Source: Leptolyngbya sp. 'hensonii' (GTDB taxonomy: Bacteria > Cyanobacteriota > Cyanobacteriia > GCF-001939115). From it: 42,419 nt of DNA. The position numbers were made by a program, and so were the translations under genes. The stretch spans positions 65,569 through 107,987 of the forward strand of contig NZ_MQTZ01000004.1 of assembly GCF_001939115.1 (NCBI RefSeq), read 5' to 3'. Of this stretch, positions 1-31,966 are shown piece by piece; positions within the stretch are counted from its first letter, which is position 1; each line of letters opens with the position of its first letter. The notes beneath the pieces are model-generated. The model saw only the letters and a program-made list of their open reading frames with translations. It did no database searches and was not told the origin of the DNA.

Positions 1-971
1 AGCAGCTCATCCGTGCGGTTGGTGGCCTGCTCTAACCTGATCTCCTGAGCGTTTTCATACTGGGGCGTAGGGGCGAAACGGTTGGTCCGCATCGAAACGA
101 TCAACTTCTGAGTCGCCAGTCCCTCCTGACGCAGCTTCTCTGCCAGCCTGCTGGTGTGGGTGGCGATCGCCTGCTTGATTTCCTCCACCTCCGTCACAGG
201 CCGCCCAAAACACCGGGTCACCATCATCCCCTGTCTGGGGTCATGACTGGCCTGGACAGGCAGACAAGACGTGTCCCCCAGTTCCAACACCGTGCGTAAG
301 GTGAGGATACTGAACCGTTTGCGAATCCAGTTGGGGTCAGCCTGCTTCAGATGCAGAGCGGTATAGATGCCCCGATCGCGCAGGGCTTCGGCAATATGGT
401 GACCAATGCCCCACACCTCCTGCACTGCGACCTCAGCCAGAATTCCCTCTAGGTCACTACGAGCCGTCAGGTCTACCACACCACCACTGGCGCGATCGGT
501 TTTGGCCAGGTGGTTGGCAATCTTGGCCAGGGTTTTGGTAGCAGCAATGCCGATCGACAAAGGAATTCCCGTCCACTGGTTCACAGTGGCACGGATCTGT
601 TGCCCATAGTCGAGCAAGTTCTGGCGCTGGAACCCACTCAGATCCAGAAAAGCTTCATCAATGGAATAGACCTCTACCGTGGGGCAGAACTGGCCCAGGG
701 TATACATGACCCGTCTGGACATATCCCGATAGAGGGCTGGATTAGACGAGAAGATGTGCAAGCCCTTCGTTTTAACCAGACCCTTGATGCTGCTGCCCAT
801 GGCCTGCATTTTGATACCCATGGCTTTGGCCTCCGGGGAACGGCTGACCACACAGGCATCGTTCCCGCTCAAAACCACAAGAGGCTGATTTTTGAGGGCA
901 GGATTAAAGACCTTCTCACAGGAGACGAAGAAATTATTGCAATCTGCCAGGGCAATGACTTTAGCTTGCAT
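1..971 (-). CDS. umuC: Y-family DNA polymerase V catalytic subunit UmuC (3' end beyond the window)
   Basis: Error-prone translesion polymerase that copies past damaged template together with UmuD'2. I translated the minus strand from the ATG at 971; it stays open to the left edge (about 323 codons; the family is usually about 420, so the C-terminal tail is missing). The palm motifs are intact: the first acidic site in ADCNNFFVSCEK (about residues 9-20) and the catalytic pair in YSIDEAFLDLSG (about 102-113). The helix-hairpin-helix region (VQEVWGIGHHIAEAL) and the start of the little-finger domain follow. The steric-gate position is Phe where E. coli has Tyr. An AGGTGA ribosome site lies just before the ATG, 13 nt after the umuD stop, so the two genes are one transcript. 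Identity is secure. Confidence 0.93.
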   Translation of the reverse strand, partial: MQAKVIALADCNNFFVSCEKVFNPALKNQPLVVLSGNDACVVSRSPEAKAMGIKMQAMGSSIKGLVKTKGLHIFSSNPALYRDMSRRVMYTLGQFCPTVEVYSIDEAFLDLSGFQRQNLLDYGQQIRATVNQWTGIPLSIGIAATKTLAKIANHLAKTDRASGGVVDLTARSDLEGILAEVAVQEVWGIGHHIAEALRDRGIYTALHLKQADPNWIRKRFSILTLRTVLELGDTSCLPVQASHDPRQGMMVTRCFGRPVTEVEEIKQAIATHTSRLAEKLRQEGLATQKLIVSMRTNRFAPTPQYENAQEIRLEQATNRTDEL

Positions 972-984
972 TGGTCACCTGAGC

Positions 985-1320
985 CTAAACCGTGTGGATG
1001 ATGGCTGTGACCATGCCCCACAGCTCAAAGTCCTGAGCTGCCTCCAGATTCGCCGAACCAGGTTGTAGCAAGTGCCACTGCCCCTCCACCCGATGAATGC
1101 GACGCACCACCAGTTCCCCAGCCAGGGCCGCCACGACCAGTTTCCCCGCAACGGGAGGTAGGGAGCGATCGACCACCAACAGATCCCCATCATGGATGCA
1201 GTCACCCGCCATGCGATCGCCCGCTACCCGCATGAAGAAGGTGGCAGCGGGACGCTTCACCAGCAGGGCATTGAGGTCCAGAGTTGTGACAAGGCCGATA
1301 TCCGGTGCAGGAAAGGACAT
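985..1320 (-). CDS. umuD: UmuD'-like polymerase accessory protein, short form lacking the autocleavage dyad
   Basis: S24/LexA-fold subunit that joins UmuC to form polymerase V. Aligned to E. coli UmuD, the protein begins MSFPAPDIG, exactly where UmuD' begins after cleavage (GFPSPAADY); the 24-residue N-terminal arm is absent. A stop codon lies seven codons upstream of the GTG at 1329 in frame, so the arm cannot be supplied by a longer start. E. coli Ser60 (SGDSM) corresponds to Arg in AGDRM, and Lys97 (TVKKL) to Arg in VVRRI, so self-cleavage is not expected. The Arg codon replacing Ser (1213-1215) lies inside a HIP1 octamer (1213-1220). The GTG at 1329 is an alternative start giving three more residues. 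Being born in the active form, it probably does not depend on RecA-stimulated processing. Confidence 0.88.
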   Translation of the reverse strand: MSFPAPDIGLVTTLDLNALLVKRPAATFFMRVAGDRMAGDCIHDGDLLVVDRSLPPVAGKLVVAALAGELVVRRIHRVEGQWHLLQPGSANLEAAQDFELWGMVTAIIHTV

Positions 1321-1479
1321 GAGGAACACTATAGCAAGAGGCTACCGTCATCCTAGCCTTTTGACAGGCAGACCTATGGGTTCTGCTCCAATCAGCATCG
1401 GGTTATTGATGCCAGAGCATAGTGTTATTCTGGGCTCTGAAAACTGACCAGCCTGAAGTAAACACTTTGAAACTCTGCC

Positions 1480-2023: not shown

Positions 2024-3181
2024 TCAAGTGTTGCTTAAGGATGCAGATGCTTGCTGATTGGGGCTGCTTTTGCTTTTTCGCAGTCTTTGCAAGGAATGCT
2101 CTAAGGCCAGTTCCACAAATGAGCTTAAGGAGTCGGCACGATCGGGTAGTTCCATCGTTTCCAAGTAGAACTGAACTGGCATAGCTAAACCCTTCCAGTA
2201 ACTATGGGTGTATTGCATCCACTTTCGTAATTTCGTGGGTAAGGAAAACTTCCCAGTCTCTATTTCTTCCTTGGTAACAATTAACCAGCTCTTGCGTCCA
2301 TTCTCCACGTATGCGAGACAGGTTACCTGATCATTCACGATCCAAAGCCGCATCATGGCAGTTTTCTTGAAGTTTTCTGACCTGGGTCCTCCCATATTCC
2401 ATTGCCCGTTAACAGTCATGAACGGAAGCCAGAGGAAAATTGCCAACTCATCCCGCTTGTTGTCCCAACCCAGCTCAGCGATCGGGTATTGTTTTGTCCG
2501 TTCAAATCGAGTCCATTTGCCATCAGGCGTTTCAGCAATCTTCAGCTTGTGGTTGCGGGCAAATTCATAGGTCTGATCACGGGTGCGAATAGCCCAATGC
2601 TTTTCCGCATCCGTGCATTTTCCTAACAAATTGACAAATGACCTGGGTGGATCAGGCAGGTCAAGATGGGGCAAAACTTCTGGAGCTGCTGGAATCTCAA
2701 CCTGGAGAACCTCTCCAGGCTCAGGCCACTGCCATAGCATGAATTTGAAACCGGCGTCCCACCTGATGATGCTATAGGTGAATAGAGTCAGGCCAAGCTT
2801 ATGGTATTTCAGTGTCAGTTCTGTCCGAGCACTGTAACTGGGACAGATGGTATAGAGTGCTATGGGTTGGCTGTAGTCAATCTGCTCATCAAAGGGTCTT
2901 TCGTCGATCAGTGCATCGAAGTAGGCAGTAATCTGTTCGACAACATGAGAATCCTGGGTGTTTTTTAACTCAATGATGACCAGTTCCTTGTTAGCTCCCC
3001 TGGCTAGGATGTCGCAGACCCCCTCTCTACAGTTATATTGACTCTTTAAGGGGGTAAGTCCCATCTGGGCCAGAACGGTATGCCAGAAGAACCATTCCAG
3101 GTGTCGCTCAGTCTCAAATTCGGCGACATCTCCATAGACGCGGAGCCTGAGGGTAGTAGGGTTACGATCGTGGTCTGACAT
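2024..3181 (-). CDS. PD-(D/E)XK nuclease-like protein (NucS/DUF91-like N-terminus)
   Basis: 385 residues. The N-terminal half has a restriction-endonuclease-fold signature: a conserved acidic residue in REGVCDILARG (about 52-62), then VIIELKN (about 68-74), the E-x-K strand, and a helix with Q-x-x-x-Y (EQITAYFDAL). This arrangement occurs in DUF91/NucS-type and other PD-(D/E)XK nucleases. The C-terminal half (about 190-360) is mixed, rich in Trp, Lys and Arg, and I could not assign it. The substrate is unknown. It sits alone between convergent and co-directional genes and is not visibly coupled to either. The nuclease fold is moderately certain and the family is not. Confidence 0.6.
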   Translation of the reverse strand: MSDHDRNPTTLRLRVYGDVAEFETERHLEWFFWHTVLAQMGLTPLKSQYNCREGVCDILARGANKELVIIELKNTQDSHVVEQITAYFDALIDERPFDEQIDYSQPIALYTICPSYSARTELTLKYHKLGLTLFTYSIIRWDAGFKFMLWQWPEPGEVLQVEIPAAPEVLPHLDLPDPPRSFVNLLGKCTDAEKHWAIRTRDQTYEFARNHKLKIAETPDGKWTRFERTKQYPIAELGWDNKRDELAIFLWLPFMTVNGQWNMGGPRSENFKKTAMMRLWIVNDQVTCLAYVENGRKSWLIVTKEEIETGKFSLPTKLRKWMQYTHSYWKGLAMPVQFYLETMELPDRADSLSSFVELALEHSLQRLRKSKSSPNQQASASLSNT

Positions 3182-16235: not shown

Positions 16236-16814
16236 CTATAGACGTTGAAGTTCCAGCAGAATTGCTGCGTAGTCTTCATTTTTCAACTCATTGCTGTGCT
16301 TGTTTGTGACTTCCCGGATAAAAGCTGTTATTCTTTCGGGCTTCCATTTCAGTCGCTTGGTGTAACGTGCGATGACCTGATCGACCAGTTGGTGAGGAAT
16401 AGGATGATCAGCCATCACGTCTTTAAGGGGAGTTGGCTCTTCTAAAAAGGTTGTCAGGACTGGGCGAAGATACCAATCCGCTTGGACCTCATCAAAGGCT
16501 GGGGGTGCTGCTGTGAAGTAAAGTGCATCTAGCTCGTCATCAACCTCCAGCCAGCCAATCATCCTTGCAAGGAATAGCCACTCTTCCTCATCAGCTTCGA
16601 TCGATCTGATACGTTCCGGCTCGATTTCAGCTAAGGGATTGTAGACACCGGCATACCAGGCTAAAGCTTGTTTTTCACAATTAACTTTCCAGTCTTCCTC
16701 TGGAGAAAAACGGGAGCCTGCTTCTACATCGCACTGACGCACCTTAGATGCTTGGGATGCTGAAGGCTTTTTAGCACGGCGCTTAGGCTTTGTAGCTCCA
16801 AATCCTCTTGACAT
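16236..16814 (-). CDS. hypothetical protein divergent from parA
   Basis: From the ATG at 16814 the product is 192 residues, with a basic N-terminus (SRGFGATKPKRRAKKPSAS), an acidic middle (AEIEPERIRSIEADEEEWL, DDELDALYF) and a helical C-terminus (PERITAFIREVTNKHSNE). No motif I recognise. The frame is open to 16847, but the extra 11 residues would reach into the parA control region. It shares a 179-bp divergent promoter region with parA, so it may be a plasmid maintenance or regulatory accessory. Confidence 0.6.
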   Translation of the reverse strand: MSRGFGATKPKRRAKKPSASQASKVRQCDVEAGSRFSPEEDWKVNCEKQALAWYAGVYNPLAEIEPERIRSIEADEEEWLFLARMIGWLEVDDELDALYFTAAPPAFDEVQADWYLRPVLTTFLEEPTPLKDVMADHPIPHQLVDQVIARYTKRLKWKPERITAFIREVTNKHSNELKNEDYAAILLELQRL

Positions 16815-16993
16815 GGTTTCTTCCAAGAACTGCCGACTGGGAAACAATGCTACTACCAGGTAATAGCAAGCTCTCTATTTTGATTACCTCTGTCTCTATC
16901 ATGGCATGTCGTTCAAAATGTCATGCGTTATGCATGTCGCTCGACTATGATTTTTGTGGGATCAGATTTCTCAAAAGGGTATGTGATAGCGCA
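16815..16993. promoter_or_regulatory. divergent control region of parAB with repeated GCATGTCG words
   Basis: 179 bp between the divergent gene and parA. The word GCATGTCG occurs at 16904-16911 and again at 16932-16939, and CATGC-GTTAT-GCATG (16922-16936) is a 5-bp inverted repeat with a 5-nt spacer overlapping the second copy. Grouped short direct and inverted repeats just upstream of parA are typical of ParA/ParB operators or parS-like sites. Confidence 0.5.
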
Positions 16994-17716
16994 ATGGCTC
17001 AAACTCGGATAGGCGTGGCTGCTCGAAAAGGTGGGGTAGGGAAAACGTCGATTGCCTGCGGGCTTGGATCTGTATTGGCGAACCAGGGTAAGCGAGTGCT
17101 GGTTGTTGACTTGGATCCACAATCTAATGCTGCTTACGTGTTGGGAACGGATCCGACTGCACCGGGAACATCTGACCTTTTGTCTGGTGGCACACCTGTG
17201 GCGTTAGAGGCAGCACCAGGACTGTGTGTACTACCGGGTGGACCAGATTTGTCTGGGCACGCTATTCAGTCTCTAGATCCAGAGGATTTAGCGGATGCAG
17301 TAGCAGCTATGGACTATGACGTACTAATCTTTGACTGTCCGCCAGGTGTGGAATATCTGGAGCGGTTGGGACTAGTGGCAGCAGATATTGCCCTGGTTTG
17401 CACCGATGCTCATCCTTTGGCGGTTATGGGTGCTGGACGGGTCATTAATGAGTTGAAGCTACGGCAGCAGAAGGGGCGGCGAGGTGCGAAGCGGTGGGGG
17501 CTGGCACTCAGCCGCATTGATTTGCGGCGCTCAATGGATCAATCGCTCGACCGACAGTTGGAAACTACCTATCCAACGATTGATCGTTTTATTGTTCACC
17601 AGGACTCTGCAGTCTCCTGGGCAGGGGCGGAAAGAGTTCCGCTGATGCAATATGATCCAAACTGTAAGGCTGCAAAAGATTTACAAGCGATCGCGGACTG
17701 GGTATTCAATGGCTAG
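16994..17716 (+). CDS. parA: ParA-family partition ATPase
   Basis: From the ATG at 16994 the product is 240 residues. It has a deviant Walker A (RKGGVGKTS, about 11-19), the ParA signature VVDLDPQSN (about 38-46) and a Walker B-like strand in YDVLIFDCPPG (about 106-116). The frame extends upstream to 16808, but that part is the control region. ParA proteins of this short type lack an N-terminal DNA-binding domain and position cargo DNA by ATP-dependent nucleoid binding. It overlaps parB by 8 nt. Its length and single-domain form fit a small plasmid-type ParA. Confidence 0.92.
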   Translation: MAQTRIGVAARKGGVGKTSIACGLGSVLANQGKRVLVVDLDPQSNAAYVLGTDPTAPGTSDLLSGGTPVALEAAPGLCVLPGGPDLSGHAIQSLDPEDLADAVAAMDYDVLIFDCPPGVEYLERLGLVAADIALVCTDAHPLAVMGAGRVINELKLRQQKGRRGAKRWGLALSRIDLRRSMDQSLDRQLETTYPTIDRFIVHQDSAVSWAGAERVPLMQYDPNCKAAKDLQAIADWVFNG

Positions 17717-18530
17717 AAGACGAAATAGTGCAGATTTGTTTGCTGAAGCGACTGCCACAGCAGATGCTATTCATGAGCAGGACCAGGCGGTTGCTGCCAG
17801 GTCTGAGCAGGAGCGAGTTCAAAAGACAAAACTGCCGTTGGATCAGATTCGAGCGAGAGAAACCGATACTCGCCCCTTAGACCCTCAGCATGTGGCGGCT
17901 CTAGCTGAGTCGATTGCGGCTTTAGGGCTGATTGAACCTCTAGTAGTAGATACAAAGGGGGTGCTGCTGGCGGGTGGACATCGGTTGGCAGCGCTTCAGG
18001 CACTACAGGAAACCAATCCAGAGGTTTACAACCAGCAGTTTTCAGATGGGCAAATCCAGGTTCACATGCTGGCGTTTGATGCTGAACAGGATCCAGAGCG
18101 GGCACTTCAAGTTGAGTTGGCAGAGAACGAAAAGAGGGTAAACTATACCCGCGACCAGATTGAGCGGTTGGCTGAACGATTGCGATCGCTCAACTACCGC
18201 GATGTGCGGGGTCGCCCGAAGGAAGGGGAGAAAGCATTAGGTCCTGCCCTTGCTGTGGCGATCGGGGTTTCGGCTCGTTATGTCCGTAAAGTCTTGAGTG
18301 AACAGAAGCAAGATGGGCAGGATCAGAAAAATAGGAACTCAGTTCCTATTTTCCAAAAGTTGAAGCTTTTGAAGAAAATCGAAGCTGCTTTGGAAGAATT
18401 GAGTGAACTGCCAGAGTCGGAGCAATCTGGACGATCGGAGAAAGCTTTACTCAAGGCACTACCCGCTTTCTTGTCCAATGTAAAAGCCTCTGCTAAGGAT
18501 ATCGAAATCCTGATTCGACAGCAGAAGTAG
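17709..18530 (+). CDS. parB: ParB-family partition/nuclease-fold protein
   Basis: 273 residues from the ATG at 17709, which lies inside the parA 3' end. The N-terminal ParB domain shows IRARETDTRPLDPQHVAALA (about 49-68), ESIAALGLIEPLVV (about 69-82) and the nucleotide-binding box LLAGGHRLAALQAL (about 87-100). The helix-turn-helix follows (ALAVAIGVSARYVRKVL, about 178-194). The C-terminus is helical and probably dimerises (LKLLKKIEAALEELSEL). It binds centromere-like sites and hands the replicon to ParA. The upstream frame to 17652 is rejected because it repeats parA DNA. Confidence 0.92.
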   Translation: MARRRNSADLFAEATATADAIHEQDQAVAARSEQERVQKTKLPLDQIRARETDTRPLDPQHVAALAESIAALGLIEPLVVDTKGVLLAGGHRLAALQALQETNPEVYNQQFSDGQIQVHMLAFDAEQDPERALQVELAENEKRVNYTRDQIERLAERLRSLNYRDVRGRPKEGEKALGPALAVAIGVSARYVRKVLSEQKQDGQDQKNRNSVPIFQKLKLLKKIEAALEELSELPESEQSGRSEKALLKALPAFLSNVKASAKDIEILIRQQK

Positions 18531-18610: not shown

Positions 18611-19657
18611 ATGAGTGAATTACTGCCCAGCGATTACCCAGAATTTCTGCGAAGCCTGAAAGCGAAGATACAGGCGCGCCAGACGAGAGCAATTCTGGCA
18701 GTCAACCGGGAACTGATTGCGTTGTATTGGGAAATTGGGCAGCAGATTGTGGAGCGGCAGGAAACAGCGGGTTGGGGTGATGCCGTGATCACGCAGCTAG
18801 AGCGTGATCTGAAGCGGGAAATGCCTGATTTAGAGGGTTTCTCCCGGCGTAACCTTTACCGGATGCGATCGCTCTATCTCGCCTATCGGGAGCAAAGTGA
18901 GAATGTGCCACAGCTTGTGGCACAAATTCCCTGGGGGCACAACACAGTGCTACTTGAAAAGGTAAAAGACCCAGCAGAGCGGGAATGGTATTTGCAGCAA
19001 ACACTGGAGCAAGGCTGGAGCCGGAACATCCTGATTCATCAAATTGAGAGTAAACTCTATACTCGTCAGGTTAGTCAAACTAAAAGTCACAATTTTGAGC
19101 AAACTTTACCCAGCCCTCAGTCTGAACTGGTAGAGCAGGCACTGAAAGATCCCTATGTCCTAGACTTCCTCACGCTGAAGCAGGGAGCCAAAGAACGGGA
19201 TCTACAAAATGCGCTGCTGGAAAAGCTGCGAGATTTTTTGGTGGAACTGGGCAATGGTTTTGCTTTTATGGGCAGTGAGTACCCCTTGCGAGTCAGTGAT
19301 CAGGATTTCTACCTGGATTTGTTGTTCTATCACTATCGGCTGCGCTGCTTGGTCGCGATCGATTTGAAGATTGGGGAGTTTAAGCCGGAAGACGCAGGAA
19401 AGATGAACTTCTATCTGTCGGCGCTGGATGCTCAAGTGAAACATCCTGACGATCGCCCGTCTGTTGGCATTATTTTGTGTAAATCGAAAGATCGGCTGAT
19501 TGCGGATTATGCTCTAGCGAATTTGAACCGGGCGATCGGGGTTAGTACCTATCAAACTAGAGAACTACCGCCAGAGATCCAAGCAGAGCTACCGACGCTA
19601 GAGCAATTGCAGCAGGCGCTGGAGGTGTCAAAACAGGATGACGCTAGTGATGACTAA
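18611..19657 (+). CDS. DUF1016/YhcG-family PDDEXK nuclease
   Basis: 348 residues. The N-terminal DUF1016 domain includes NRELIALYWEIGQQIVERQ, GFSRRNLYRMRSLYLAYRE and QIPWGHNTVLLEKVKD (about 30-120). The C-terminal domain is the YhcG nuclease: GFAFMGSEYPLRVSDQDFYL, DLLFYHYRLRCLVAIDLK and GKMNFYLSALD, in which the acidic residues and the DLK strand make a PD-(D/E)XK site. This family is common on plasmids and beside restriction and defence genes; its biological substrate is not established. It stands alone between parB and the convergent helicase gene and is probably an independent accessory gene. Confidence 0.9.
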   Translation: MSELLPSDYPEFLRSLKAKIQARQTRAILAVNRELIALYWEIGQQIVERQETAGWGDAVITQLERDLKREMPDLEGFSRRNLYRMRSLYLAYREQSENVPQLVAQIPWGHNTVLLEKVKDPAEREWYLQQTLEQGWSRNILIHQIESKLYTRQVSQTKSHNFEQTLPSPQSELVEQALKDPYVLDFLTLKQGAKERDLQNALLEKLRDFLVELGNGFAFMGSEYPLRVSDQDFYLDLLFYHYRLRCLVAIDLKIGEFKPEDAGKMNFYLSALDAQVKHPDDRPSVGIILCKSKDRLIADYALANLNRAIGVSTYQTRELPPEIQAELPTLEQLQQALEVSKQDDASDD

Positions 19658-19723
19658 GTAGGTAAGGGTGCCCTTTAAACACGTTTGATAAATGGTGTGG
19701 TCATTTAAGCCGAAGAAGCGAAC

Positions 19724-22405
19724 CTACCACCCTTGTAAAAGGTGCTGTTTTCGATCTCTGGCACTCAATACTGTTGCACAAGATTCCCAAGGCACTTTTT
19801 TAACTTGATGGTATTTGAATTCAAAGGGATGTTTTTGTGGCACTGCGTTAATCGTTTGCTTGGCTTCCTCAAGCTTGCCTTGAGCCACTTGAACCCACAC
19901 GTCTTCTAATACATCAGGGATTTGTCCAAAAAGTTGATGAATCGCTTCCAAGCGATCGCTCAGCAGTTCATGTACCCGGTCTTCAACTGAGCCTCGGTAG
20001 CGCATATTATAGATTTGAACGACATCGCGTAACTGTCCGATGCGTTGAATCCGCCCCTTTCGTTGTTCTAGCCGAGTTGGGTTCCAGGGAAGGTCAAGGT
20101 TGATCAGAGTGCCGAGTCGTTGGAGATTGAGTCCTTCGCTAGCCGCATCCGTACCCAATAACAAGCGCATTTCGCCTCGACGCACCATTTGTTTTAGGCT
20201 TTCTCGTTCTTGCCGACTGAAAACGCCATTCACCAGAACGCCAGACTTTTGCCCACCCGCATAAATTCCAATGACTTCTCCTTTAGGAAGGTCGCGGGAA
20301 AGTTGATCGGCTAACCAGCGAACGGAGTCAAAGTACTGAGAGAAGATGATGCAACCTGATTCTAACCAGTCTTCTTCAACAAGCAGGTGGCGAACAACCT
20401 CATATTTGGGGTCATCTTCCTGATTTGCCTCTAGCTTGTCGAGGAACTGCTCTAGTTTGTCCCGTTCAGATGGGGTTAATGATTTGGGTCTATCGTCTGG
20501 AATGGCATCTTCATCGTCTTCTTCCTCAATATCTTCCCAAGCTCCCAGCATACTCTTGGCGGTGTTCATGCCCGCGCAGATGGTGCTACCCACTCGCCGC
20601 AGCAACAGCGTCCTCAGGAAGCCTGATCCCTTCATGCGTTGTCCTAATAGGTCGCAAAACTCTTCTGCGATCGTGTAAGCATCTCTCAAATAAAGCGGCA
20701 GTGAAATCGACTCTTGATTGGTCTCGCCGTATAACTTAACTCTGACTGGCTTGAGATAGGGTTCATTCGTTTCGGGATCAATTGTATTTTCGAGGTAGTC
20801 TCGTGTACGGCGGACGATGTGACGGATGAAGGGATTATGGTGCGGACCAAAGTCTCGTGCGAGTCTACGAATTCGGTCTTTGTCAGGATTTCTCAGCTTA
20901 TTCCAGGAATCACCAGGAACGACCGCAACCTCATCGGCGACTTTGAGTGTGCGGCGGATATTTTTAAAGTCAATGCCCTCGGACGCGGGAGGAAGTGGAT
21001 TGCGAATCCAGCGCCATCGGTCTTGATCATCTTCAGGCAATTCAGCTTGCCCCATTGCCATCAGCAGCGCCTCGTCTGCTCGTCGCCAATTACTCCAGTC
21101 GGTACCCAATACTGCTTCGTTATTGATAGAGAGGACGTTAAGCAAGTCCCAAGCTTCGACGGGATACATTTGAACTGGGGTCGCGGTTGCTAGCAGCAAA
21201 CTTTTGGCGCGAGGGGCGATCGCGCACAGGAAGGAGAGAAGATTGTTGGGTGTCGGTTTTTCAGCTTCACGATCGAGTCCTAAGTTGGCGCGCCGTGCCC
21301 GATGCGCTTCATCAACAATGATGCACTCGTAATTAATCTGTTTCAAATAATTGGCTGCTTCGGACTTGTTGGTGATTAACCCTTGAGAGACGATACCCAC
21401 CCGACGGGGGCATTTTTTAATCCCCATTGCACCAGCAGCAGGATACTCCAGTCCATTTTCATCGACCCACTGTTTACCATTCCAGACCGCGCTTGGCATT
21501 TCTAACAGGTTGAGCATTTCCTCCTGCCATTGCCAGAGCAGCGGTTTGGGCACCAGAATCAGGACGGGTTTATCGCCATAGAGTGCCATGAGCATGGCGG
21601 AAAGGGCGAGCTGCATCGTTTTACCAAGTCCGACCATATCTGCCAGGACAAACCTAGCCCCGTGTGGACTTTTGTGTGCCTCAAATGCCAGGGTGACAAA
21701 GTATTTCTGGTGTGCCCAGAGTCCATACTCTTGACGGTAGACGGGGGTTTCAATGATAGGCGCACCGGGATCAGCCTCTTCGCGCCAGACTTCGACGCTG
21801 GGGAAGACGCTGCGTTGGGACAGGCGACCAATATCTTCAATCACGAAATCAGCCAGGTTGACGGCTAATGGGTGATGCCAAAGCGCATCAAACTCTTCTT
21901 GTACCCACTGAATTGCTTCTGGGGAATTGTCTTCCCACACGAGTTCATAATGCAGTTTCCAGGCATCATAGGTTTCGTTGGTGCTGCCCATGAAGCAGGT
22001 TTTTGCTCCATTTGCTGTTGTGATGACACCGGCTTTGCCATGTACCAGACCAAATTTTTCGCGGGGCAGCACTTTGACTTGCATCTTGCCCGATCGCAAA
22101 AACTGATAAAGTCTGGCAAATCGAGGTTTCGCTTTTTCGTTATAGTTTTCGGGTTCTGCGGCACACCATTCTCGCCGCATAGCATAATTGGCAGCTTTGG
22201 CAGTGTCTACATCTTGAACGTTGAGGTCAGAGTTGCAAATGACGCGGATTTGTCCAGTGATACTCTCAAGACTTTCTCCGGCGACTTCCAGGATGGAGGA
22301 GCGGAAGTAGCCCGCAATGCGATCGTAGGTTTGCGCTCCCTGGAGTCGTTGGTTCAGGAAGGTTTGATCGAGTTTGGTACGACGGGAGGAGAAGCGGTTG
22401 ATCAT
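19724..22405 (-). CDS. SNF2-type helicase with N-terminal phospholipase D-like domain (defence operon)
   Basis: 893 residues from the ATG at 22405; a TTG at 22459 would add 18 and overlap the PIN gene. The N-terminal region is PLD-like, with VHGKAGVITTANGAKTCFMG and GSTNETYDAW matching an HxK...N site. The SF2/SNF2 helicase follows: motif I LADMVGLGKTM, motif II IIVDEAHRARR, motif III LLLATATPVQMYP. Motifs V-VI lie in LGTDAASEGLNLQRLGTLIN and PTRLEQRKGRIQRIGQ. Such PLD-SNF2 fusions accompany DUF1156 methylases in DISARM-related anti-phage clusters and are thought to translocate on or cut unmodified DNA. It is the last gene of the minus-strand operon, after the PIN/AbrB insertion. Confidence 0.9.
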   Translation of the reverse strand: MINRFSSRRTKLDQTFLNQRLQGAQTYDRIAGYFRSSILEVAGESLESITGQIRVICNSDLNVQDVDTAKAANYAMRREWCAAEPENYNEKAKPRFARLYQFLRSGKMQVKVLPREKFGLVHGKAGVITTANGAKTCFMGSTNETYDAWKLHYELVWEDNSPEAIQWVQEEFDALWHHPLAVNLADFVIEDIGRLSQRSVFPSVEVWREEADPGAPIIETPVYRQEYGLWAHQKYFVTLAFEAHKSPHGARFVLADMVGLGKTMQLALSAMLMALYGDKPVLILVPKPLLWQWQEEMLNLLEMPSAVWNGKQWVDENGLEYPAAGAMGIKKCPRRVGIVSQGLITNKSEAANYLKQINYECIIVDEAHRARRANLGLDREAEKPTPNNLLSFLCAIAPRAKSLLLATATPVQMYPVEAWDLLNVLSINNEAVLGTDWSNWRRADEALLMAMGQAELPEDDQDRWRWIRNPLPPASEGIDFKNIRRTLKVADEVAVVPGDSWNKLRNPDKDRIRRLARDFGPHHNPFIRHIVRRTRDYLENTIDPETNEPYLKPVRVKLYGETNQESISLPLYLRDAYTIAEEFCDLLGQRMKGSGFLRTLLLRRVGSTICAGMNTAKSMLGAWEDIEEEDDEDAIPDDRPKSLTPSERDKLEQFLDKLEANQEDDPKYEVVRHLLVEEDWLESGCIIFSQYFDSVRWLADQLSRDLPKGEVIGIYAGGQKSGVLVNGVFSRQERESLKQMVRRGEMRLLLGTDAASEGLNLQRLGTLINLDLPWNPTRLEQRKGRIQRIGQLRDVVQIYNMRYRGSVEDRVHELLSDRLEAIHQLFGQIPDVLEDVWVQVAQGKLEEAKQTINAVPQKHPFEFKYHQVKKVPWESCATVLSARDRKQHLLQGW

Positions 22406-22442
22406 TGCAAACGCAGATAAATGAGGATGAGAGGGCAAAGAT

Positions 22443-22856
22443 CTAGGTAGCTGTGTCAATTATGAGTTGTTTGAATTGCGAGATTGAAACGATGGTTGTA
22501 GATAGCAAGCGTTGAGCTTCGGTGAAGTCTTTATCACCTGTGATAAAAACTTCAGCGTTTGCAGCCAAAGCACAGGCGATAAACTTGGCATCTTTTTGAT
22601 CGCGAGGAAATTCAATTTCAAGATCGACTTCAACTAGCGTTGTTAGGGTCTCTAGCAAGTGGAACCATTGCTGCTTCAGTGCTTCAGATAAACCAAGTCG
22701 TTTTCGGCAAAGAACGGTTTTGTACTCTTCTAAAATTGCAGATGAGACAAGCCACTGATAGGCTTCCTGTTCCAGCACAAATAGAATAACGGCTTCAGGA
22801 TCGCGATCGCGCAACGCTGCTGAAACAAGCACATTGGTATCAATTACAATCTTCAT
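22443..22856 (-). CDS. PIN-domain toxin (putative RNase)
   Basis: 137 residues of the COG1569 PIN type. Acidic active-site residues are visible in KIVIDTNVLVSAAL (Asp6), ILEEYKTVL (Glu), DQKDAKFIACALAANAEVFI (Asp pair) and TGDKDF. PIN toxins cleave RNA and are held in check by a cognate antitoxin. The start overlaps the upstream AbrB-like antitoxin by 4 nt, a typical toxin-antitoxin layout. The pair interrupts the methylase-helicase order of the defence operon. Confidence 0.9.
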   Translation of the reverse strand: MKIVIDTNVLVSAALRDRDPEAVILFVLEQEAYQWLVSSAILEEYKTVLCRKRLGLSEALKQQWFHLLETLTTLVEVDLEIEFPRDQKDAKFIACALAANAEVFITGDKDFTEAQRLLSTTIVSISQFKQLIIDTAT

Positions 22857-23092
22857 TTGCCAGCCCGATAAGCCTCAATTTCAGCGGCAATTTCTGCTTC
22901 GGTGATGGTTTGGGCTTGAGGAAGGGCTTGGGTCTCCTTCAACAGCGCTTTGAAGGCTTGAATGTGCTCTTGACGCTGTGGCTTCAAAACAATCACTTTA
23001 ACTTGAATGCCTTCTGCGAATGCAGATTGATAGGCTGCCGGAATCTCAATCATTCCATTTTTGATTTCTGTCTGAAACTCTACAGCTTCCAT
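22853..23092 (-). CDS. AbrB-like antitoxin of the PIN pair
   Basis: 79 residues. The N-terminus reads as a swapped-hairpin AbrB-type DNA-binding fold (FQTEIKNGMIEIPAAYQSAF, GIQVKVIVLK). The C-terminal helical part (ITEAEIAAEIEAYRAGK) resembles the toxin-wrapping tail of such antitoxins. A strong AAGGAGG ribosome site precedes the ATG by about 9 nt, so this gene can be translated well on its own. Probably autoregulated with the toxin. Identification is mainly by fold pattern and position. Confidence 0.8.
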   Translation of the reverse strand: MEAVEFQTEIKNGMIEIPAAYQSAFAEGIQVKVIVLKPQRQEHIQAFKALLKETQALPQAQTITEAEIAAEIEAYRAGK

Positions 23093-23132
23093 TTTCTTCG
23101 CCTCCTTGATTAGATCTTCAGGTCATCTGCGT

Positions 23133-26018
23133 TCAAACACTGTCATTCTCTAATGTGCCTGCCAGAATTTCGGCGGCTTTGGCATCTACAGACCAATGGT
23201 TCATTTTGAAACCCATTGTGGCAAGGTAGCGGAGGATGTGGATCAAGTTTTTCCGTTGGTTCCAGTAGTCGCGAACTTCGGCGCGGAGCCAGGATTTACC
23301 TTGTTGAGTAGATTCAGTGCGAACGGTTTCGCGGATGGCGAAGAGGGCATTGCGGACGAGAGAGGCACTGAAACCACTGGTTGGATCAGACAGCCCACTC
23401 AGGTTTTTGGTGGTGAATTCGGTGGCGGTTTTGAGGCGGGTCTGGTTCGCTTTGCCGCTTTGCAAGAAGGATTTATAGTCTTTTACGCCAAAGCCGCGAG
23501 CGAGTTCTTGATAGGCTCCGGTGCGGTATTCGCCGTGGCTTTCGATGTCGAGTCCTTTGAGGTAGAAGCGTTCTTCGGGGGTGAGGCTTTTCCAGACGAA
23601 GGTGTCGAAGCCTTTGGGCACGAGGTAATCGCAGGCAATGACGACCGCTTGATCGATAATTTTCTCGATCTCGGATTTCTCGCTACCTTTCTTGCGGGGT
23701 TTGGAGAGTTCGTAGGCGATGTCGATGTCTTCGATGTTTTGATACTGGGTCAACACACGCAGGGCAGCAGCATAGGCAGCAAGCTGGTAGTCAGTATCGC
23801 CAAAGTTGGGGTCTTCTTCGTCTTCGAGTGCCAGCATAGAGGCGAGTTGACGTTTGACTTCCAGTTCCACTTTGGGATAGATCTCGTCGAGGAAGGCGGT
23901 GTCGTCACCGGTTTGTTTGCGGAGGATGAGGAGGACGGTGCCCTGGACGTAGTTGCCTTCTTTGAGGGCAGAACTGGTTTCGGTGGCGATGCACCAGGCA
24001 GCGGTGACGCGCAAGCCCGATGCCCAGAGAATGAGGGCGAGATCTGCCCAGACCCCAGCATCTTGATGGGTGAACATGACGACCTGATAGCCGTTGGCAG
24101 GCATGTGGTTCGCCAGGTTGCGGTAGCATTCCACCATGCTTTTGCGAAAGTCTTCGGCGCGTCCAGTGATCGCAAGGGCACGTTTGCTATCGGAGTACCA
24201 TTTTGGAAACAGCCTAATTAAAGATTTGTCGTACCACGCCAGGAAAAACTCAGATAGCTCATGGTAGTTGATGGCATCGGCATAGGGTGGATCGGTGATC
24301 CAGGCATCTAAAACCGTGTTTAAGGTTCGGGCATCAATGGCGCGAGTTTGGGATGCAGGCAAACTATAGTTTTGAACCTCAAGGCAGTAATCAGATAAAC
24401 CGGATGCTCCTTGCACGCCATATTGAATGTTGGTATTCAATGCCTGATTCGCAAACGTGTTTCTAATCCCGTCTCTGGATGGATCAACACCGCATAACTT
24501 GGAGTTCCTTTCTGCAAAACGACCAACCATCAACAGGCAGGCGACGCCGTTGGTAATAGAAGGAAGTTTCAATAACTCGGAAAAGCAGAGACCAATGATA
24601 AGCAACTGCCTTGCAGAAAATAGGTGATGCCAATGCGTCCAACCTCGTTCACGAATAGGTTGATCGGTGTTGTATCCTGGCTCAATTTGGCGGCTGGGGA
24701 TGTAGCCCTTCTCCTGCCAGGTGGCAAAGCGTTCTTGCAGCAGTGCAATCACTTTCTGTTCCCGCTCCAAATCGCTTGCATCTGGAGCTAAGAAATAGCG
24801 TTTGGTTTGCGTTTTACCTTTGCTGTCAACGTAAGTCTCAATCCAGCGAATGCAGTACAGTCGCTCCTGAAAAACCGCGTTTGGAGGTGGGACAAAATCG
24901 CTTTTTCCCCAGAGCCGCAGCCCGTGTTCCCGTCTGCCGTCGCCGCGAATGATGGCGATCGGTGTTTTCTGCTGGCAATGGGGACAGACTAAATTGGAGT
25001 TGGCAACTGTGCCAGGACTGGCAAGCTGATCCAGATTCAGGCGTTTATCCACTTGCTGTACGGCAATTTCAAACGCTTGCTGATCGGGAATGGGAATGAG
25101 CTTGGCAAACGTGCCCGATCGCTTGCCAATCACCCAGGAGGCAGCCAGGGGAACTTTCCAATGACACTCTGGACAGATCACTTCATTGCAGTAGAAAAAG
25201 GCATCTGCTCGCCAGCCGTGTTCGTTATGCTCAATGCCCCATGCGGTCACCTGGCGATCGACGGCATCTGCCAATTGCTGCTGAGCTTCGGCAATTTGCT
25301 GGCTGATTTCTTCGCCGCCGCCAACAATATTTAATGCTGCCCAAGTGAGCAATGCTGCCACTGGATTTAAATCTGACCCATACGCCTCACACCCTAGACG
25401 AGCTGCTTCAAAAGGAACGCTACCCCCCCCAGCAAAAGCATCGCCGATTCTAGGAATGTGCCCAAACTGGCGTTCTCCGAGCTGCTGCACCAAATCGTTC
25501 AAACTATGAGCATCCGTTTCCAGATAAGCATTAATGTCTCGCCAAGCTGATTCCGAGAGATTGGTAACGTGTTCAGGGCGATCGCAATAATCGAGCTTTT
25601 CATCGTAAGTAAGTCGCCAAAAAACGGTTTTCTGAAGAATTACCTTTTCCTCTTTAGACAAATCCTTCTTCAACGTTGGCTTAATCTTGGAGAGTTCTAA
25701 ATCAAACCACTTTACTCGTTCAGACTCTCGCAGACGAATGAAAAGTTCTTCGGGGGAAATGGGTTTGGATTTGCGCTGCCAAAGTCCCTCATCATCCATC
25801 GTCATGATTTTGAGGAAGATTTCGCGATCGCGCTTGGGGTTATCGGAGGTTGGGAGTAATAACCCAAAGATAACCGCCCGCACCAAAACAAGCGGCTTCC
25901 GTCCCCACCATTTGCCCAATCCCGTTAGTGTTTGCGTCAGGTGTCCAGTTCGCTCTTTGTAGCTTTCCTTTGACAGCTTTGAAACCGGAAATTGCGTCTC
26001 GATAAAGGACTGCGCCAT
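23133..26018 (-). CDS. DUF1156 adenine-specific DNA methylase (anti-phage cluster)
   Basis: 961 residues. It starts with the DUF1156 domain (PVSKLSKESYKERTGHL, GLGKWWGRKPLVLVRAVIFG), includes a SAM site (GDAFAGGGSVPFEAARLG, then GSDLNPVAALL, about 200-227) and the amino-methyltransferase motif TDPPYADAINY (about 575-585). Two CxxC zinc-binding pairs lie at about 277-280 (CPECHW) and 347-350 (CPHCQQ). Such methylases mark host DNA in DISARM-related systems so that the partner helicase/ATPase complex spares it. The stop is 40 nt before the antitoxin start and the gene begins 3 nt after the Uma2 stop. A 341-residue antisense ORF over its 3' half is a codon-bias shadow. Confidence 0.93.
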   Translation of the reverse strand: MAQSFIETQFPVSKLSKESYKERTGHLTQTLTGLGKWWGRKPLVLVRAVIFGLLLPTSDNPKRDREIFLKIMTMDDEGLWQRKSKPISPEELFIRLRESERVKWFDLELSKIKPTLKKDLSKEEKVILQKTVFWRLTYDEKLDYCDRPEHVTNLSESAWRDINAYLETDAHSLNDLVQQLGERQFGHIPRIGDAFAGGGSVPFEAARLGCEAYGSDLNPVAALLTWAALNIVGGGEEISQQIAEAQQQLADAVDRQVTAWGIEHNEHGWRADAFFYCNEVICPECHWKVPLAASWVIGKRSGTFAKLIPIPDQQAFEIAVQQVDKRLNLDQLASPGTVANSNLVCPHCQQKTPIAIIRGDGRREHGLRLWGKSDFVPPPNAVFQERLYCIRWIETYVDSKGKTQTKRYFLAPDASDLEREQKVIALLQERFATWQEKGYIPSRQIEPGYNTDQPIRERGWTHWHHLFSARQLLIIGLCFSELLKLPSITNGVACLLMVGRFAERNSKLCGVDPSRDGIRNTFANQALNTNIQYGVQGASGLSDYCLEVQNYSLPASQTRAIDARTLNTVLDAWITDPPYADAINYHELSEFFLAWYDKSLIRLFPKWYSDSKRALAITGRAEDFRKSMVECYRNLANHMPANGYQVVMFTHQDAGVWADLALILWASGLRVTAAWCIATETSSALKEGNYVQGTVLLILRKQTGDDTAFLDEIYPKVELEVKRQLASMLALEDEEDPNFGDTDYQLAAYAAALRVLTQYQNIEDIDIAYELSKPRKKGSEKSEIEKIIDQAVVIACDYLVPKGFDTFVWKSLTPEERFYLKGLDIESHGEYRTGAYQELARGFGVKDYKSFLQSGKANQTRLKTATEFTTKNLSGLSDPTSGFSASLVRNALFAIRETVRTESTQQGKSWLRAEVRDYWNQRKNLIHILRYLATMGFKMNHWSVDAKAAEILAGTLENDSV

Positions 26019-26021
26019 AGG

Positions 26022-26585
26022 TCAGAAATCCAGTTCTTCAAAGAGTTCTGCCACAGCTAAGGAAAACCCAGGAACGATTTCTTCACCATCCAGCGAGTCT
26101 TCTAAGCGCAACAAGCGATCGGGGCTAGGGCTGTGATACACCAGCACATACTGCTCATCTGGGTGAATTACCCAAACCAATCGCGTCCCGTTGTCAAAAT
26201 ACTCCACGATCTTGTCGTGAATTTCCTCTACGGTGTTGTTAGGCGAAAGAATCTCTACCGCTAAATCGGGCGAACCCTGAAAGTAACCTTTGGGCAACCG
26301 CTTCACGCCTTGAAGCCGCTCTTTGGCAACAAACGACACATCGGGCGATCGCTTGTTCCCTGTTTTCATGGTGAAGGCTGTACTTGAATCGCAGATCACA
26401 CCCAACTTTTGCGATCGTACTAATCCCCCCAAAAAGATAATCAGGTTGCTGGCAATATAGCCATGCTCCATCCCCGAATTGCCCATACTCACCAGTTCCC
26501 CATTCACCAACTCATAGCGCCCATCCTCGGGCAATGCCATGAACTCCTCATCCGTCCAAATTTTTTGCTCAGATGCAACGATCAT
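26022..26585 (-). CDS. Uma2-family (DUF820) PDDEXK nuclease-like protein
   Basis: 187 residues from the ATG at 26585. Characteristic Uma2 blocks: WTDEEFMALPEDGRYELVNG at the N-terminus, SPDVSFVAKERL, GSPDLAVEILSPNNT (the acidic catalytic strand), EEIHDKIVEYFDNGTRLVWV and YHSPSPDRLLRLED. This family is hugely expanded in cyanobacteria and has a restriction-endonuclease fold with no established function. The start overlaps the DUF3780 stop as ATGA and the stop is 3 nt from the methylase, so it is fully embedded in the defence operon. It is not part of the usual gene set there, so either cargo or a recruited effector. Confidence 0.92.
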   Translation of the reverse strand: MIVASEQKIWTDEEFMALPEDGRYELVNGELVSMGNSGMEHGYIASNLIIFLGGLVRSQKLGVICDSSTAFTMKTGNKRSPDVSFVAKERLQGVKRLPKGYFQGSPDLAVEILSPNNTVEEIHDKIVEYFDNGTRLVWVIHPDEQYVLVYHSPSPDRLLRLEDSLDGEEIVPGFSLAVAELFEELDF

Positions 26586-27238
26586 GTCTGACTGCCTCCA
26601 TTGGTAGCTGAGGCGGTTGTCCTTGCCCAAGTTGCCTCATCTTCTCCTAGCTTAAACAAGGGCAGTTCGACTGTCTCAGGGCGATAGTCTGACACTGGAT
26701 TTTCAGTCAGGGCATACCGCACTGCCTTGCGCCACCCCTTCCCGCGCCCCGCGATCGCATGACCTGTGGCCGCATTCGTCATGGTAAACAGCCACCACCG
26801 CTCTTCGGGTGCCAGCCCCAACCAATTCTTCAAGGCAATGGGAATGAGTGCCGGGTCTGCCTCCTCGATCGCCCATGCCAGCAACACTAATTCTTTGCCA
26901 AACAAGCGCAAAATGGGAGTCTGCCCGCCCTTGCCTGCCTTCACCACCCACTGCCCAGACTTTAGCCCCAGAGTCCGCAACCGCTGGTTAAATTCGGCTT
27001 TAACCGGGTCAGCGATCGCCTCCCACTTCTGTCGAGGCAAAATCACCCGCATTTTATTGTCTTCTTGCCCCAAAGCGAAGCTCAGTTCCCGCCGAGCTTC
27101 GCTGTCGTCCCAGGTGAAATGCTCACTGATGAAAACATCATCTTTCTTGTGAGCCGGAATGGTCACCAGAAAATGGTGCTCCGATTCCGTTGGCACAAAG
27201 CCAAATCCTTCTGATTTTTCAATACGAGCTTTAGACAT
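26582..27238 (-). CDS. DUF3780 protein (anti-phage cluster)
   Basis: 218 residues from the ATG at 27238 (MSKARIEKSEGFGF). The sequence follows the DUF3780 family: FGFVPTESEHHFLVTIPAHK, WDDSEARRELSFALGQEDNK, ILPRQKWEAIADPVKAEFNQ, LFGKELVLLAWAIEEADPAL, then GLAPEERWWLFTMTNAATGH and the basic GRGKGWRKAVRYAL. It has no enzyme signature. The family is found almost only beside DUF499 and DUF1156 genes, so it is probably a structural or specificity subunit. Together with its neighbours it identifies the cluster. The gap to the DUF499 stop is 63 nt, the loosest junction between the core genes. Confidence 0.9.
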   Translation of the reverse strand: MSKARIEKSEGFGFVPTESEHHFLVTIPAHKKDDVFISEHFTWDDSEARRELSFALGQEDNKMRVILPRQKWEAIADPVKAEFNQRLRTLGLKSGQWVVKAGKGGQTPILRLFGKELVLLAWAIEEADPALIPIALKNWLGLAPEERWWLFTMTNAATGHAIAGRGKGWRKAVRYALTENPVSDYRPETVELPLFKLGEDEATWARTTASATNGGSQT

Positions 27239-27301
27239 AAATTGCACGAATGCATTTCAGCGTTCTGGGTAGTCCTTATATTATCTTGGCTATCTCCGTT
27301 T

Positions 27302-30300
27302 CTATTGTTTAACTTCATCAGGCTTGACTTCTGTTTTCACCTCTGCTACCCAGTCCAACAAGAGTTGCCCATTGGGAAAGCGGATGGAATCAACCTCAAT
27401 CTCCACTTCTCCTTCTGCCAACAGACCACGCAAGTGGTTAATTGTGCTTTCCAGCTTCTCAGCATCCAGCTTGAGGCGATCGTCGATCGACAGTTCCAGC
27501 CAGTTCTCGCCGCTAATGGTGATGCGCCCACCCGCAACTTCTGCCTGAAATTTCTTCAGCCGTCCCATAAATTCGTAGGCATCTTTCGTCGTGCTGGGAT
27601 GGTGCGGGCGCTTCCAAAGGGCAGGTGCCTCTGGCTGAATTTCGACTGTGGTTTTGCCAGACGGTTCCCAGCGAATATCCCGACGATGTACCTCTGAAGC
27701 CAGTCCGTTTTTTTCAGCGATCGCCAGCACACACACCGTTCCCGGCAGTACTACAAATGGCTCAGCGTAACTACCTCCCGCCGTCTTGGGATCCGATCCA
27801 TCCGTTGTGTAACGAATTGGGGCAGGGGGAGCCGATCGTAATTCCACCATCTTATCGGAGCCGTTTTGGTAACAAACCGACTTCAGGGTAATGCGGTTAT
27901 GCCACGTTCTCGCCTCCCCTGCCTCATGCTCACCTTTAGAATCTACGCACAGGAAAGAAACTGCTAGCTCTTGCGTCTTAAAGCTTTTAGGATCAGCGAC
28001 TCGCTGCGAAGCCGTCGTTGCGGGAGAACCGACCTCGTAGTAAACGGTGTCTCCGTGAACGGCGGTCAGCTTCAGTGTGACCTCACCCGTTTCATCATCC
28101 CGTTGCGCCTCGTACCAGCGAATATCGGTTTGGGCCTTCGGAAATGGTGGCTTCTCCGTATAGCCTCCTTCTTCGCGCCATTGATCCTTTAGAATCAGGC
28201 TGGTTCTGAGTTCATCCAACGCATCCATCCGGTGCCACTGCCACTGCGGATTCATCGCCGCGCGTTTTTTGATCTCCGTCCAGGGCATTGCCTTTTGGGT
28301 AAAGAGCCGAGCTTCACACTTCTTGCGGAAGGAATCGCTGGCAACGTCCTCCGTAAACTTCTGCTTCGCTCTCAACGCTTCCCGAATCTGCTTTTCGCCG
28401 TTATAGTCGTTATCCGTAAAGTTCATTAAGAAGTCGGCGGTGAGCAACCCATCACTGGAGGGATAGGTCAGGGTCGTGAAAGTCTCCCGCATGGCGCTTA
28501 AGAGCCGCAACTGAATGTTGTCCCGAATATCCCTGGCTGCCACGAGTTGAGGGTCATTATCGGGAACCTTCTCAAACTCCATTTCTGTGATGATTGAAGC
28601 GATCGCCTTCAGTTCAGCCGCATTCTCCAGTAGCGACTCCAGCGTGTTGCGGGAGCCAGACAGAAACAGAATCCGGTTTTTGTAGTCCAAATCTTCGTAG
28701 AATTTCACCAGATCACCGGGCAGCCCATTGCCGGAATCCGGTTCACAAACGATCAGCGTCACCCGATCAGACTTGATCGTAATCTCATCTATAGCCGGAA
28801 AAACTGACACATCCTGATAGCAGTCTTTCAGTGAAATTGGCTTGAAAGTGTCTCCCAAAAACGTTCTCAGTTGCTTTAATGAAGATTCGCGGTTAAGCCC
28901 TTCTGCTGTTGTCTTGAGCTTTGCTACCAGGTTCTGGACATTCTTAAAATAAAGCTTGCCTTCGCGATTCGAGTGCAGATACCAGGCTTTAGTTGTCAGC
29001 ACCCCCAAAATATCTTTGGGTAGCTTGGAAACATCTCGACCCGGGGTACATAAGTAAGAAACAATTTCAGACAGAGATAATCCCAGCACGGCATTAGGCA
29101 CATTTGCTAGGGAAGAGACTAAGAGCAACTTGGCAGCATCCTGAGCATCCGTTCCGCCCAAATGAGAGTCCATAATTTCGGCGATCGCCTGTCCACCTGA
29201 GGCAAGATCGTGGCTAATCGCGTTATCCAGATTGGGATTAATTTGAATGATTTCTCCTAAAGTGTCGCGATCGTTGAAATCCAGGTCGTAGGCGTGGATC
29301 AAATGAAGGTGGTCTGCTCGTCCACCTTCCGAATCAAATAGGCGGGCAACCACGACCCGCATCAGCCGAATTAAGCCACGAGTTTGCTGAAACCCAGGAT
29401 TTTCCCGAAAGCGGGCATAGAGATCCCGAATCGCAAAATGAAACGGGTAAGATTCCTTGAGTTGAGTGGCAAAACTGTCGGGAGAAGCATTCGTGATATC
29501 CATTTGCTTAGCATCCCGAACTGCCTGAGCATAGGCACGGGAAACCTGCCAAATTTCATCCTCTTCAGGTAAGTCTTCAAACAGTCGTTTGCGAAGAATG
29601 TGGTAAACCTCATCTGTATTTAGTCCCACTGGCTCCAGGGTGACGGCTCCTCGTCCCACTTCTCCCTTCAGATTTTCCAGGGCACGACTAATTTGCTGGC
29701 TACCGCCTTCATAGGTTGCTTTTAAGTCCGAAATCACCACACAAACATTGGCAAGTTCTTCCTTCCCAACCGCTACCAATAAGTTAGAAATGGCAGTAGT
29801 CGTCACTTTTGATAAATTTGAATCCCCGATCGCCTTTGATTCGGCATTTTCCAAATAGGGCGGCAACTCGTCTAATAGGATCAGAAGTGGCTCTCCTTTG
29901 AGCAGGTTGACCCAGGCGGTCTGTCCTGGAGCCGATAATGGGGAGTAGTAATCCTTAAAGGCTTCTTTTTTGCCTAACTGCTCGGCGATCGCCCCCCAAA
30001 CTCCCAACGGCGCATCACTCTCTCTCCCCGTGAAAGCAACGACCCTCACCGCTCCTAAATGACCACCTTCATAGAGACTGCCCATGACGGTTTGGCGCAA
30101 CTCTGGGTATTTTGCCAATAGCCCTAGCACAATCATGTTGTGTGTTTTACCACCACCCATCGCCTGACTGAGAACAAAAACTCCCTGGTTAGACTGCCCA
30201 TTGAATCGCCGAAACGACTCCCTTAACAGGCGTTTCATCCCCTGTGTCAAATAGTTCTCAGTAAAGAACTCCTCTGGCTTGATTCTGTTTTCAATTAAAT

Positions 30301-31186: not shown

Positions 31187-31966
31187 GTGTTTGAGGGTGA
31201 TACATTAACTTCTTCGTATTTCCTAATGTGGAATTGGCTGAACACCCGTACTGCTTCAGCCGTGAAAATCAACCGCCACGACCAAGCCAAGATCCTCTCG
31301 CCACAGGAGATCGCTTGGTTGTTTGATGGCAGGGTGGGGTTCGTTTCAGATCTGAAGCTATTGCGGTTGCTGATTTGGAGTGGAAAAGAGGAAGGAATGG
31401 AGGCGGGAGCTTCGCTGTTGCCAAGGGCAATCGCCTCCCTGTCGTTGCTCTCTTATATAGAAGGATTGCCGACCGATCGAGATCGGTCGTTGTTTGGCAT
31501 CTGCCTCTACACGACTGCGCGGGTCAATGAGGCATGTTCGTTGCATACCGTTGATGTGTATGGGACAGATGGGCGGGTGCGCGATCGCATTACCTTCCGA
31601 CGCGCCACGACGAAGGGGAAGCAGGAGACGCGATCCGTCCCGGTGTCGCCGGAGTTGAGAGAATTGTTGACGGGGTATCGGAGCGATCGCCCCTATTTGT
31701 TTCCAGGACGGTGGGGGAGAGGGCATATTTGCCCGGAGTCTGCCGATGCTATTTTACGGGCAGCCTTTAAGCGATTGGGGATTGAGGGAGCCAGCACTCA
31801 CAGCTTTCGACGAACGGCAATTACCTGGATGCACAATGAGCGAGTGCCGATCAAGCACATTCAATCAATCTCTGGACACAAGAGCCTATCTGCGTTACAG
31901 CGGTATATCGATGTGACGGAGAAGGATAAGGAGATGGCGATCGCCACACTGAGCTTTCGCTCATAG
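31187..31966 (+). CDS. tyrosine recombinase/integrase
   Basis: 259 residues from GTG at 31187; the N-terminal 30 residues are uncertain. An N-terminal arm with KINRHDQAKILSPQEIAWLF is followed by the catalytic domain: Arg in YTTARVNEACSLHTV, Lys in RRATTKGKQETRSVPV, HxxR in THSFRRTAITWMH, His in SGHKSLSALQRY and Tyr in QRYIDVTEK. All five residues are present, so it should be active. The 260 bp upstream contain the paired inverted repeats, which are candidates for its binding sites. It may integrate or resolve the surrounding element, or act in multimer resolution. Unrelated in sequence detail to the recombinase at 9176. Confidence 0.88.
   Translation: MFEGDTLTSSYFLMWNWLNTRTASAVKINRHDQAKILSPQEIAWLFDGRVGFVSDLKLLRLLIWSGKEEGMEAGASLLPRAIASLSLLSYIEGLPTDRDRSLFGICLYTTARVNEACSLHTVDVYGTDGRVRDRITFRRATTKGKQETRSVPVSPELRELLTGYRSDRPYLFPGRWGRGHICPESADAILRAAFKRLGIEGASTHSFRRTAITWMHNERVPIKHIQSISGHKSLSALQRYIDVTEKDKEMAIATLSFRS

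Follow-up and report, generated by a model that had tools for sequence, protein, structure and literature searches.

An armless umuD' gene beside umuC in Leptolyngbya sp. 'hensonii' and its probable role in a pre-activated DNA polymerase V

Introduction

In Escherichia coli, cleavage of UmuD delays the action of DNA polymerase V (Pol V) and releases UmuC from the membrane (PMC4552617). RecA-ATP is moreover required as a subunit of the mutasome (PMC6511836), and a further account likewise places it in the active Pol V complex (PMC4374754). Phage P1 HumD is described as an already activated UmuD (PMC7092418); the annotation of humD in the P1 sequence record gives it a LexA site and states that it complements UmuD'. 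In Bacillus, YqjX/YolD serves with YqjW as a small Pol V-like subunit for which there is no proteolytic activation (PMC6511836, PMC12926913). No published report of an armless UmuD lacking the catalytic dyad in a cyanobacterial umuC operon was found in the open-licence literature.

The operon described here lies in a 42,419-nucleotide stretch of the genome of Leptolyngbya sp. 'hensonii' (the window). It resembles that of E. coli Pol V in the fold of UmuD', in the gene order umuD-umuC, and in the catalytic residues, clamp motif, RecA-NT motif and C-tail of UmuC, but it differs in that UmuD' is made directly, without the N-terminal arm and with Ser60 and Lys97 both replaced by Arg, and in that Tyr11 of UmuC is replaced by Phe. 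Arm-bearing cyanobacterial UmuDC systems, for example that on the Synechocystis plasmid pSYSM, are encoded by homologous operons (45–50% identity), but they have a full arm, an AG cleavage site and, in nearly all the umuC-adjacent cases, the GDSM Ser together with the Lys. The Bacillus system offers a parallel in that a small subunit is used without proteolytic activation, although YqjX/YolD has no sequence homology to UmuD.

As argued below, the pair in the window is probably a constitutively pre-activated Pol V, whose UmuD would be made directly as active UmuD'. Cleavage of UmuD is regarded as one of the principal safety catches on SOS mutagenesis in bacteria, and here it would have been removed from an operon-encoded Pol V, so that a chromosomal operon conserved across a lineage would be the natural equivalent of a laboratory UmuD' construct. 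Such an operon would provide a natural test of the purpose of the cleavage step, and of how a cell copes when its only UmuD and Y-family polymerase form a pre-activated Pol V, while the window gene and its relatives together illustrate the fate of a protease dyad after substrate loss.

Results and discussion

The umuD' gene and its start

The umuD'-type gene occupies positions 985–1320 on the minus strand, from an ATG at 1320 to a TAG stop at 985–987, and encodes 111 residues (MSFPAPDIGLVTTLDLN...IIHTV). The product matches the Pfam family Peptidase_S24 (8.5e-15) and the NCBIfam UmuD model NF007621/PRK10276 (2.1e-25; 89 bits, under the 110-bit cut-off). The closest solved structure in a PDB search is E. 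coli UmuD'. An AlphaFold2 model built on 39 homologues, with a mean pLDDT of 84, gave UmuD' 1ay9 as its best PDB match in Foldseek (E 4.5e-8, TM about 0.76). Both the fold and the sequence similarity of the S24/UmuD' family are thus present (Pfam, Foldseek), and the core fold residues of UmuD' are retained.

The ATG at 1320 falls exactly at the UmuD cleavage site. An arm is ruled out by two in-frame stops at 1342–1350 on the minus strand, TAG (1344–1342) and TGA (1350–1348), and the alignment likewise shows that the N-terminal arm with its Ala/Cys-Gly cleavage site is missing. A preliminary description of this DNA had placed a stop seven codons before the GTG at 1329; the TGA is indeed there, but the nearer TAG, five codons 5' of the GTG, had been overlooked. 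This GTG (1327–1329, minus strand) is the sole canonical alternative start between the TAG and the ATG, and would add three residues (MFL) that are neither required nor conserved. The ATG is the likelier start, because every relative belonging to the clade described below likewise has a Met there.

It might be supposed that an arm is still made through a non-canonical start or a frameshift, or is hidden by a sequencing error, and the next four codons of the frame beyond the TAG, which would read PLAI, may be seen as faintly like the arm motif PLY of relatives. However, the two stops fall within 10 codons, the dyad is also lost, and about 15 distinct clade sequences contain no ATG, GTG or TTG from the upstream stop to the Met, so that for these the short form is the only product possible from standard starts. 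A surviving arm is accordingly very hard to credit.

Alignment to E. coli UmuD places Arg36 (CGC, 1213–1215, minus strand, in the context GDRM) at the position of catalytic Ser60, and Arg73 (CGT, 1102–1104, minus strand, in the context VVRRI) at that of catalytic Lys97. The Ser-Lys dyad is therefore absent, and the initial observation of an armless UmuD with both protease residues changed to Arg is upheld by alignment, codons and in-frame stops alike.

The HIP1 octamer GCGATCGC is present at 1213–1220, as had been reported, and overlaps the Arg36 codon. HIP1 occurs 31 times in the window against an expectation of 0.64, and the window gene is the only one in the UmuD set to carry it at the Ser site. 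The further proposal that a single A-to-C step, from AGC to CGC, both removed the Ser and created the octamer finds no support: such a step is unlikely because the Ser60 codon of relatives is TCN in 130 of 132 cases, and the clade has lost the Ser without gaining HIP1. With TCN codons in the relatives and no other UmuD bearing HIP1 at this position, HIP1 was rejected as the cause of the Ser change.

The umuC partner

The gene for umuC begins 13 nt after umuD', in an operon arrangement. Its first 323 of 425 codons lie at positions 3–971 of the window (minus strand), and the remainder, beyond the window edge, is intact (L001 207–1484), so the concern raised at the outset that the 3' end of umuC might be mutated can be set aside. 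The complete 425-residue window protein has the C-tail RYTT...LPIVKA, RYTTNWKELPIVKA, the part of UmuC to which UmuD' binds in E. coli. Equivalents of catalytic Asp6, Asp101 and Glu102 are retained, in agreement with the preliminary description. The clamp motif (QVDLF) and a RecA-NT-like motif, LMEA.DTINQKLGAGTIKYA, of the pattern LM..D.IN.KLGAGTIKYA, are also present, all these motifs being defined as in PMC6511836. The steric-gate residue, Tyr11 in E. coli, is Phe15 in the window protein (927–929, minus strand, computed from the ATG at 971), and a Phe here is common to the whole clade. In E. coli UmuC the change Y11F hardly alters sugar selectivity and leaves lesion bypass approximately as in the wild type, and the variant is more mutagenic (PMC3493448).

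Genome context

The genome (5.94 Mb, 99.98% complete) encodes two S24 proteins, this UmuD and one LexA, and a single RecA; this UmuC is its single Y-family polymerase. The window umuD' is the cell's only UmuD: an arm-bearing homologue with Ser and Lys in the same strain lineage, suggested earlier as a possible sign of decay, was sought, and no arm-bearing UmuD is present in the genome.

This bears on the alternative that the non-catalytic UmuD' is a regulator or partner of other proteins, such as the replicative polymerase, the clamp or RecA, and not a Pol V subunit. E. coli UmuD proteins do bind several partners (PMC5342242), and several genomes of the other cyanobacterial order considered below have UmuDs of both lengths, short and full. 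Against this, umuC lies 13 nt away, or overlaps, in most loci, and the genome of the window offers neither another UmuD with which this one might pair nor another UmuC partner, so that a role outside Pol V appears improbable.

A plasmid location of the operon was considered, on account of a ParA-like ATPase, an integrase and a Tn3 transposase nearby, but was rejected, since genes that we take from their sequence to be gltB/gltD and ndhD lie on the same contig. A ParA-like ATPase, a ParB-like protein, a tyrosine recombinase and a Tn3-family transposase are encoded at 16808–18530, 31187–31966 and 40034–42418 of the window, and are signs of an integrated mobile element. Positions 18611–30382 hold a putative defence island, with a DUF1016/YhcG nuclease, a PLD-SNF2 helicase, a DUF1156 methyltransferase and a DUF499 ATPase. 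A protein with a NucS_C nuclease domain is encoded near umuD'C at 2024–3181 of the window (minus strand), and also at L185 9047–10105 and L189 5232–6113; it was rejected as part of the module, since it recurs near umuD'C in only these two other loci.

Relatives in another cyanobacterial order

Most of the UmuDs that adjoin umuC in cyanobacteria and betaproteobacteria have the arm, the cleavage-site Gly, the Ser and the Lys. A search for short UmuD' proteins, centred on one other cyanobacterial order, found them in about 14 of 65 genomes. These proteins, of some 97–121 residues, start with M-(G/S/A)-FP(V/I)PGDAIEQ, their Met occupies the P1 position of the cleavage site, and Ser60 and Lys97 are lost in all of them (GDM..., QVLRV); in most loci the gene adjoins or overlaps umuC. 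Beyond that order and the genome of the window, no further members were recognised by sequence search in a 386-genome cyanobacterial sample, where matches were judged by identity and frame length and not each by eye. No relative of the window UmuD' was found in viral contigs, and a plasmid collection gave arm-type UmuDs among the matches listed.

In a UmuC tree the window protein joins 12 UmuCs of this clade with support of 100/100, and in a UmuD tree computed after removal of the columns for arm, Ser and Lys the window and the clade group together at 93/93. The window is the first branch of the clade, and its UmuD lies on a long branch. Alignment with UmuD homologues, which the preliminary description had recommended, reveals arm loss and dyad loss to be linked, and in a conserved clade. 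Ser and Lys are both kept in 93 of 99 umuC-adjacent UmuD frames outside the Met-start groups and in 0 of 19 in the clade; Phe occupies the UmuC steric gate in 20 of 20 clade members against 1 of 77 others; and the glycine closing the RecA-NT helix of UmuC is found in 0 of 15 in the branch of the other order as against 72 of 78 elsewhere (GAGT in the window protein), though each of these clade-wide counts represents one evolutionary event and not independent ones. At the umuC C-termini of L138–L178 (e.g. L172 3367–4677), xPDAV replaces GxGT throughout the branch except in the window.

Between close pairs within the clade, dN/dS is mostly 0.08–0.24 for umuD' and 0.08–0.13 for umuC, and the armless, dyad-less UmuD' is maintained there by purifying selection. 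The window umuD' has no near relative, and against distant members, where dS is near saturation, it gives values of 0.40–0.57; because only such distant comparisons exist, the case for constraint on the window gene itself rests on its intactness and kinship.

These results also allow the possibility to be weighed that the window gene is a decaying copy, which lost its arm and dyad as Pol V fell out of use and whose umuC will follow. The change of both protease residues, the long branch of the window UmuD, its dN/dS against distant members and the occurrence of broken module copies in the other order would all suit such a history. On the other hand, umuD' and the whole of umuC are open, every UmuC motif is in place, the core of the UmuD' fold is kept, and the trait is common to a clade under purifying selection; decay is therefore considered unlikely.

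The other order includes some broken copies of short umuD', and so the umuD'C module is sometimes dispensable. Arm-bearing UmuDs are also frequent in genomes of that order, where the short UmuD' might act as their partner. Three copies of short umuD' occur in G428:C3 and several in G449, with fragments in G435, G459 and G464, and such multiple, partly broken copies per genome suggest a mobile module. In one genus, umuD' and umuC are separated by a gap of 570–740 nt (L172 2784–3366, L134, L135, L137, L157), which in L172 contains a DUF4278 gene in the opposite orientation.

Proposed mode of action and control

On the reading preferred here, that of a pre-activated Pol V, translation would begin at the usual cutting point of UmuD, and methionine aminopeptidase would probably trim the Met, which precedes Ser in the window protein and Gly, Ser or Ala in the clade, to leave a near-natural UmuD' N-terminus. 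The UmuD' dimer would then bind UmuC immediately through the conserved UmuC C-tail to give an active polymerase, and the delay, together with the inhibitory or sequestering UmuD2C stage, would for that reason be absent. The membrane release of UmuC that accompanies cleavage in E. coli, like the delay itself, would be missing here or achieved otherwise. Once its substrate had gone, the Ser/Lys dyad would have been free to change. The earlier proposal that no RecA-triggered UmuD cleavage step operates is supported by the lack of an arm and of the dyad beside an intact umuC.

The accompanying proposal, that control would be by transcription only, is not supported. UmuC keeps its RecA-NT motif, the E. 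coli enzyme needs RecA-ATP, and by analogy RecA-ATP would still be expected in the active Pol V complex of the window. The LexA of this genome is of the cleavable type, with its AAGG site, GDSM and TLK intact, and its gene has the box GATACAAGTGTTCT 46 nt upstream. In the region upstream of the operon (1321–1479, minus strand), neither a LexA-box-like site above chance nor a sigma-70-like promoter match was found, the best 14-mer being no better than in shuffled sequence. The 13 nt directly before the ATG, GCTATAGTGTTCC, bear a weak likeness to the lexA-gene box, one base short. Control may come from transcription and from the entry of RecA-ATP into the mutasome via the docking motif of UmuC, perhaps with protein turnover as a third means.

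In the other order, 9 of 16 loci have the 14-mer RRTAYAARTGAACT at -32/-33, where it overlaps a -10-like TATAAA; it is a putative conserved promoter element, and its likeness to the published cyanobacterial LexA box, RGTACNNNDGTWCB (PMC3091678), is at about chance level.

It is tempting to go further and to see a cyanobacterial Pol V lineage that was uncoupled from RecA in steps: RecA-triggered cleavage would have been lost first, in the window and clade together, and the RecA-docking glycine afterwards, in the branch of the other order only, with in addition the Phe gate, which resembles that of the more mutagenic Y11F variant of E. coli. This scenario is speculative and on balance doubtful; if true, it would mean a Pol V working with little or no RecA control.

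Phage HumD and other UmuD variants

In P1 HumD, as in its relatives N15 gp26, HK639 and yong1, the cleavage site likewise coincides exactly with a Met (M-GFPSP), and the window gene shares with the HumD family the trait of being encoded directly as UmuD'. P1 HumD nevertheless keeps Ser and Lys in the present alignment and is phage-borne without an adjacent umuC. HumD-family members are solitary phage genes, whereas the window umuD' has umuC beside it and scores only 48.2 bits with the HumD model NF051876, below the cut-off of 120 bits. In the UmuD tree the HumD group is a lineage separate from the window and clade. The relatives of HumD have lost the dyad stepwise: Ser is Thr in N15; Ser is Thr and Lys is Met in HK639; and Ser is Tyr and Lys is Arg in yong1. 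The arm, and after it the dyad, has therefore been lost on at least two occasions: among phages, where umuC is missing, and in a umuC-containing operon of cyanobacteria.

In L145, L147 and L165 a Met neighbours the cleavage site (M-x-GFPSP), while the dyad shows graded loss (Ser and Lys kept, Ser to Ala, and Ser to Leu); these loci resemble a second arm loss but were not adopted as one, two of the three having possible upstream starts. A group of UmuD paralogues without adjacent umuC (L107, L108, L109, L112) has Gly in place of Ser and Arg in place of Lys, and lacks GFPSP. The umuC-adjacent frames L113, L116, L117, L121, L123, L124 and L125 have candidate starts, lack the GFPSP region and keep Ser and Lys. 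Finally, 12 UmuD paralogues of Synechococcus/Cyanobium type (L004, L010, L011, L077, L080, L084, L087, L088, L095, L098, L099 and L100), mostly without adjacent umuC, keep the arm and AG site but have Ser60 replaced by Ala and Lys97 by Arg; to judge from these residues, they could be cuttable in trans only.
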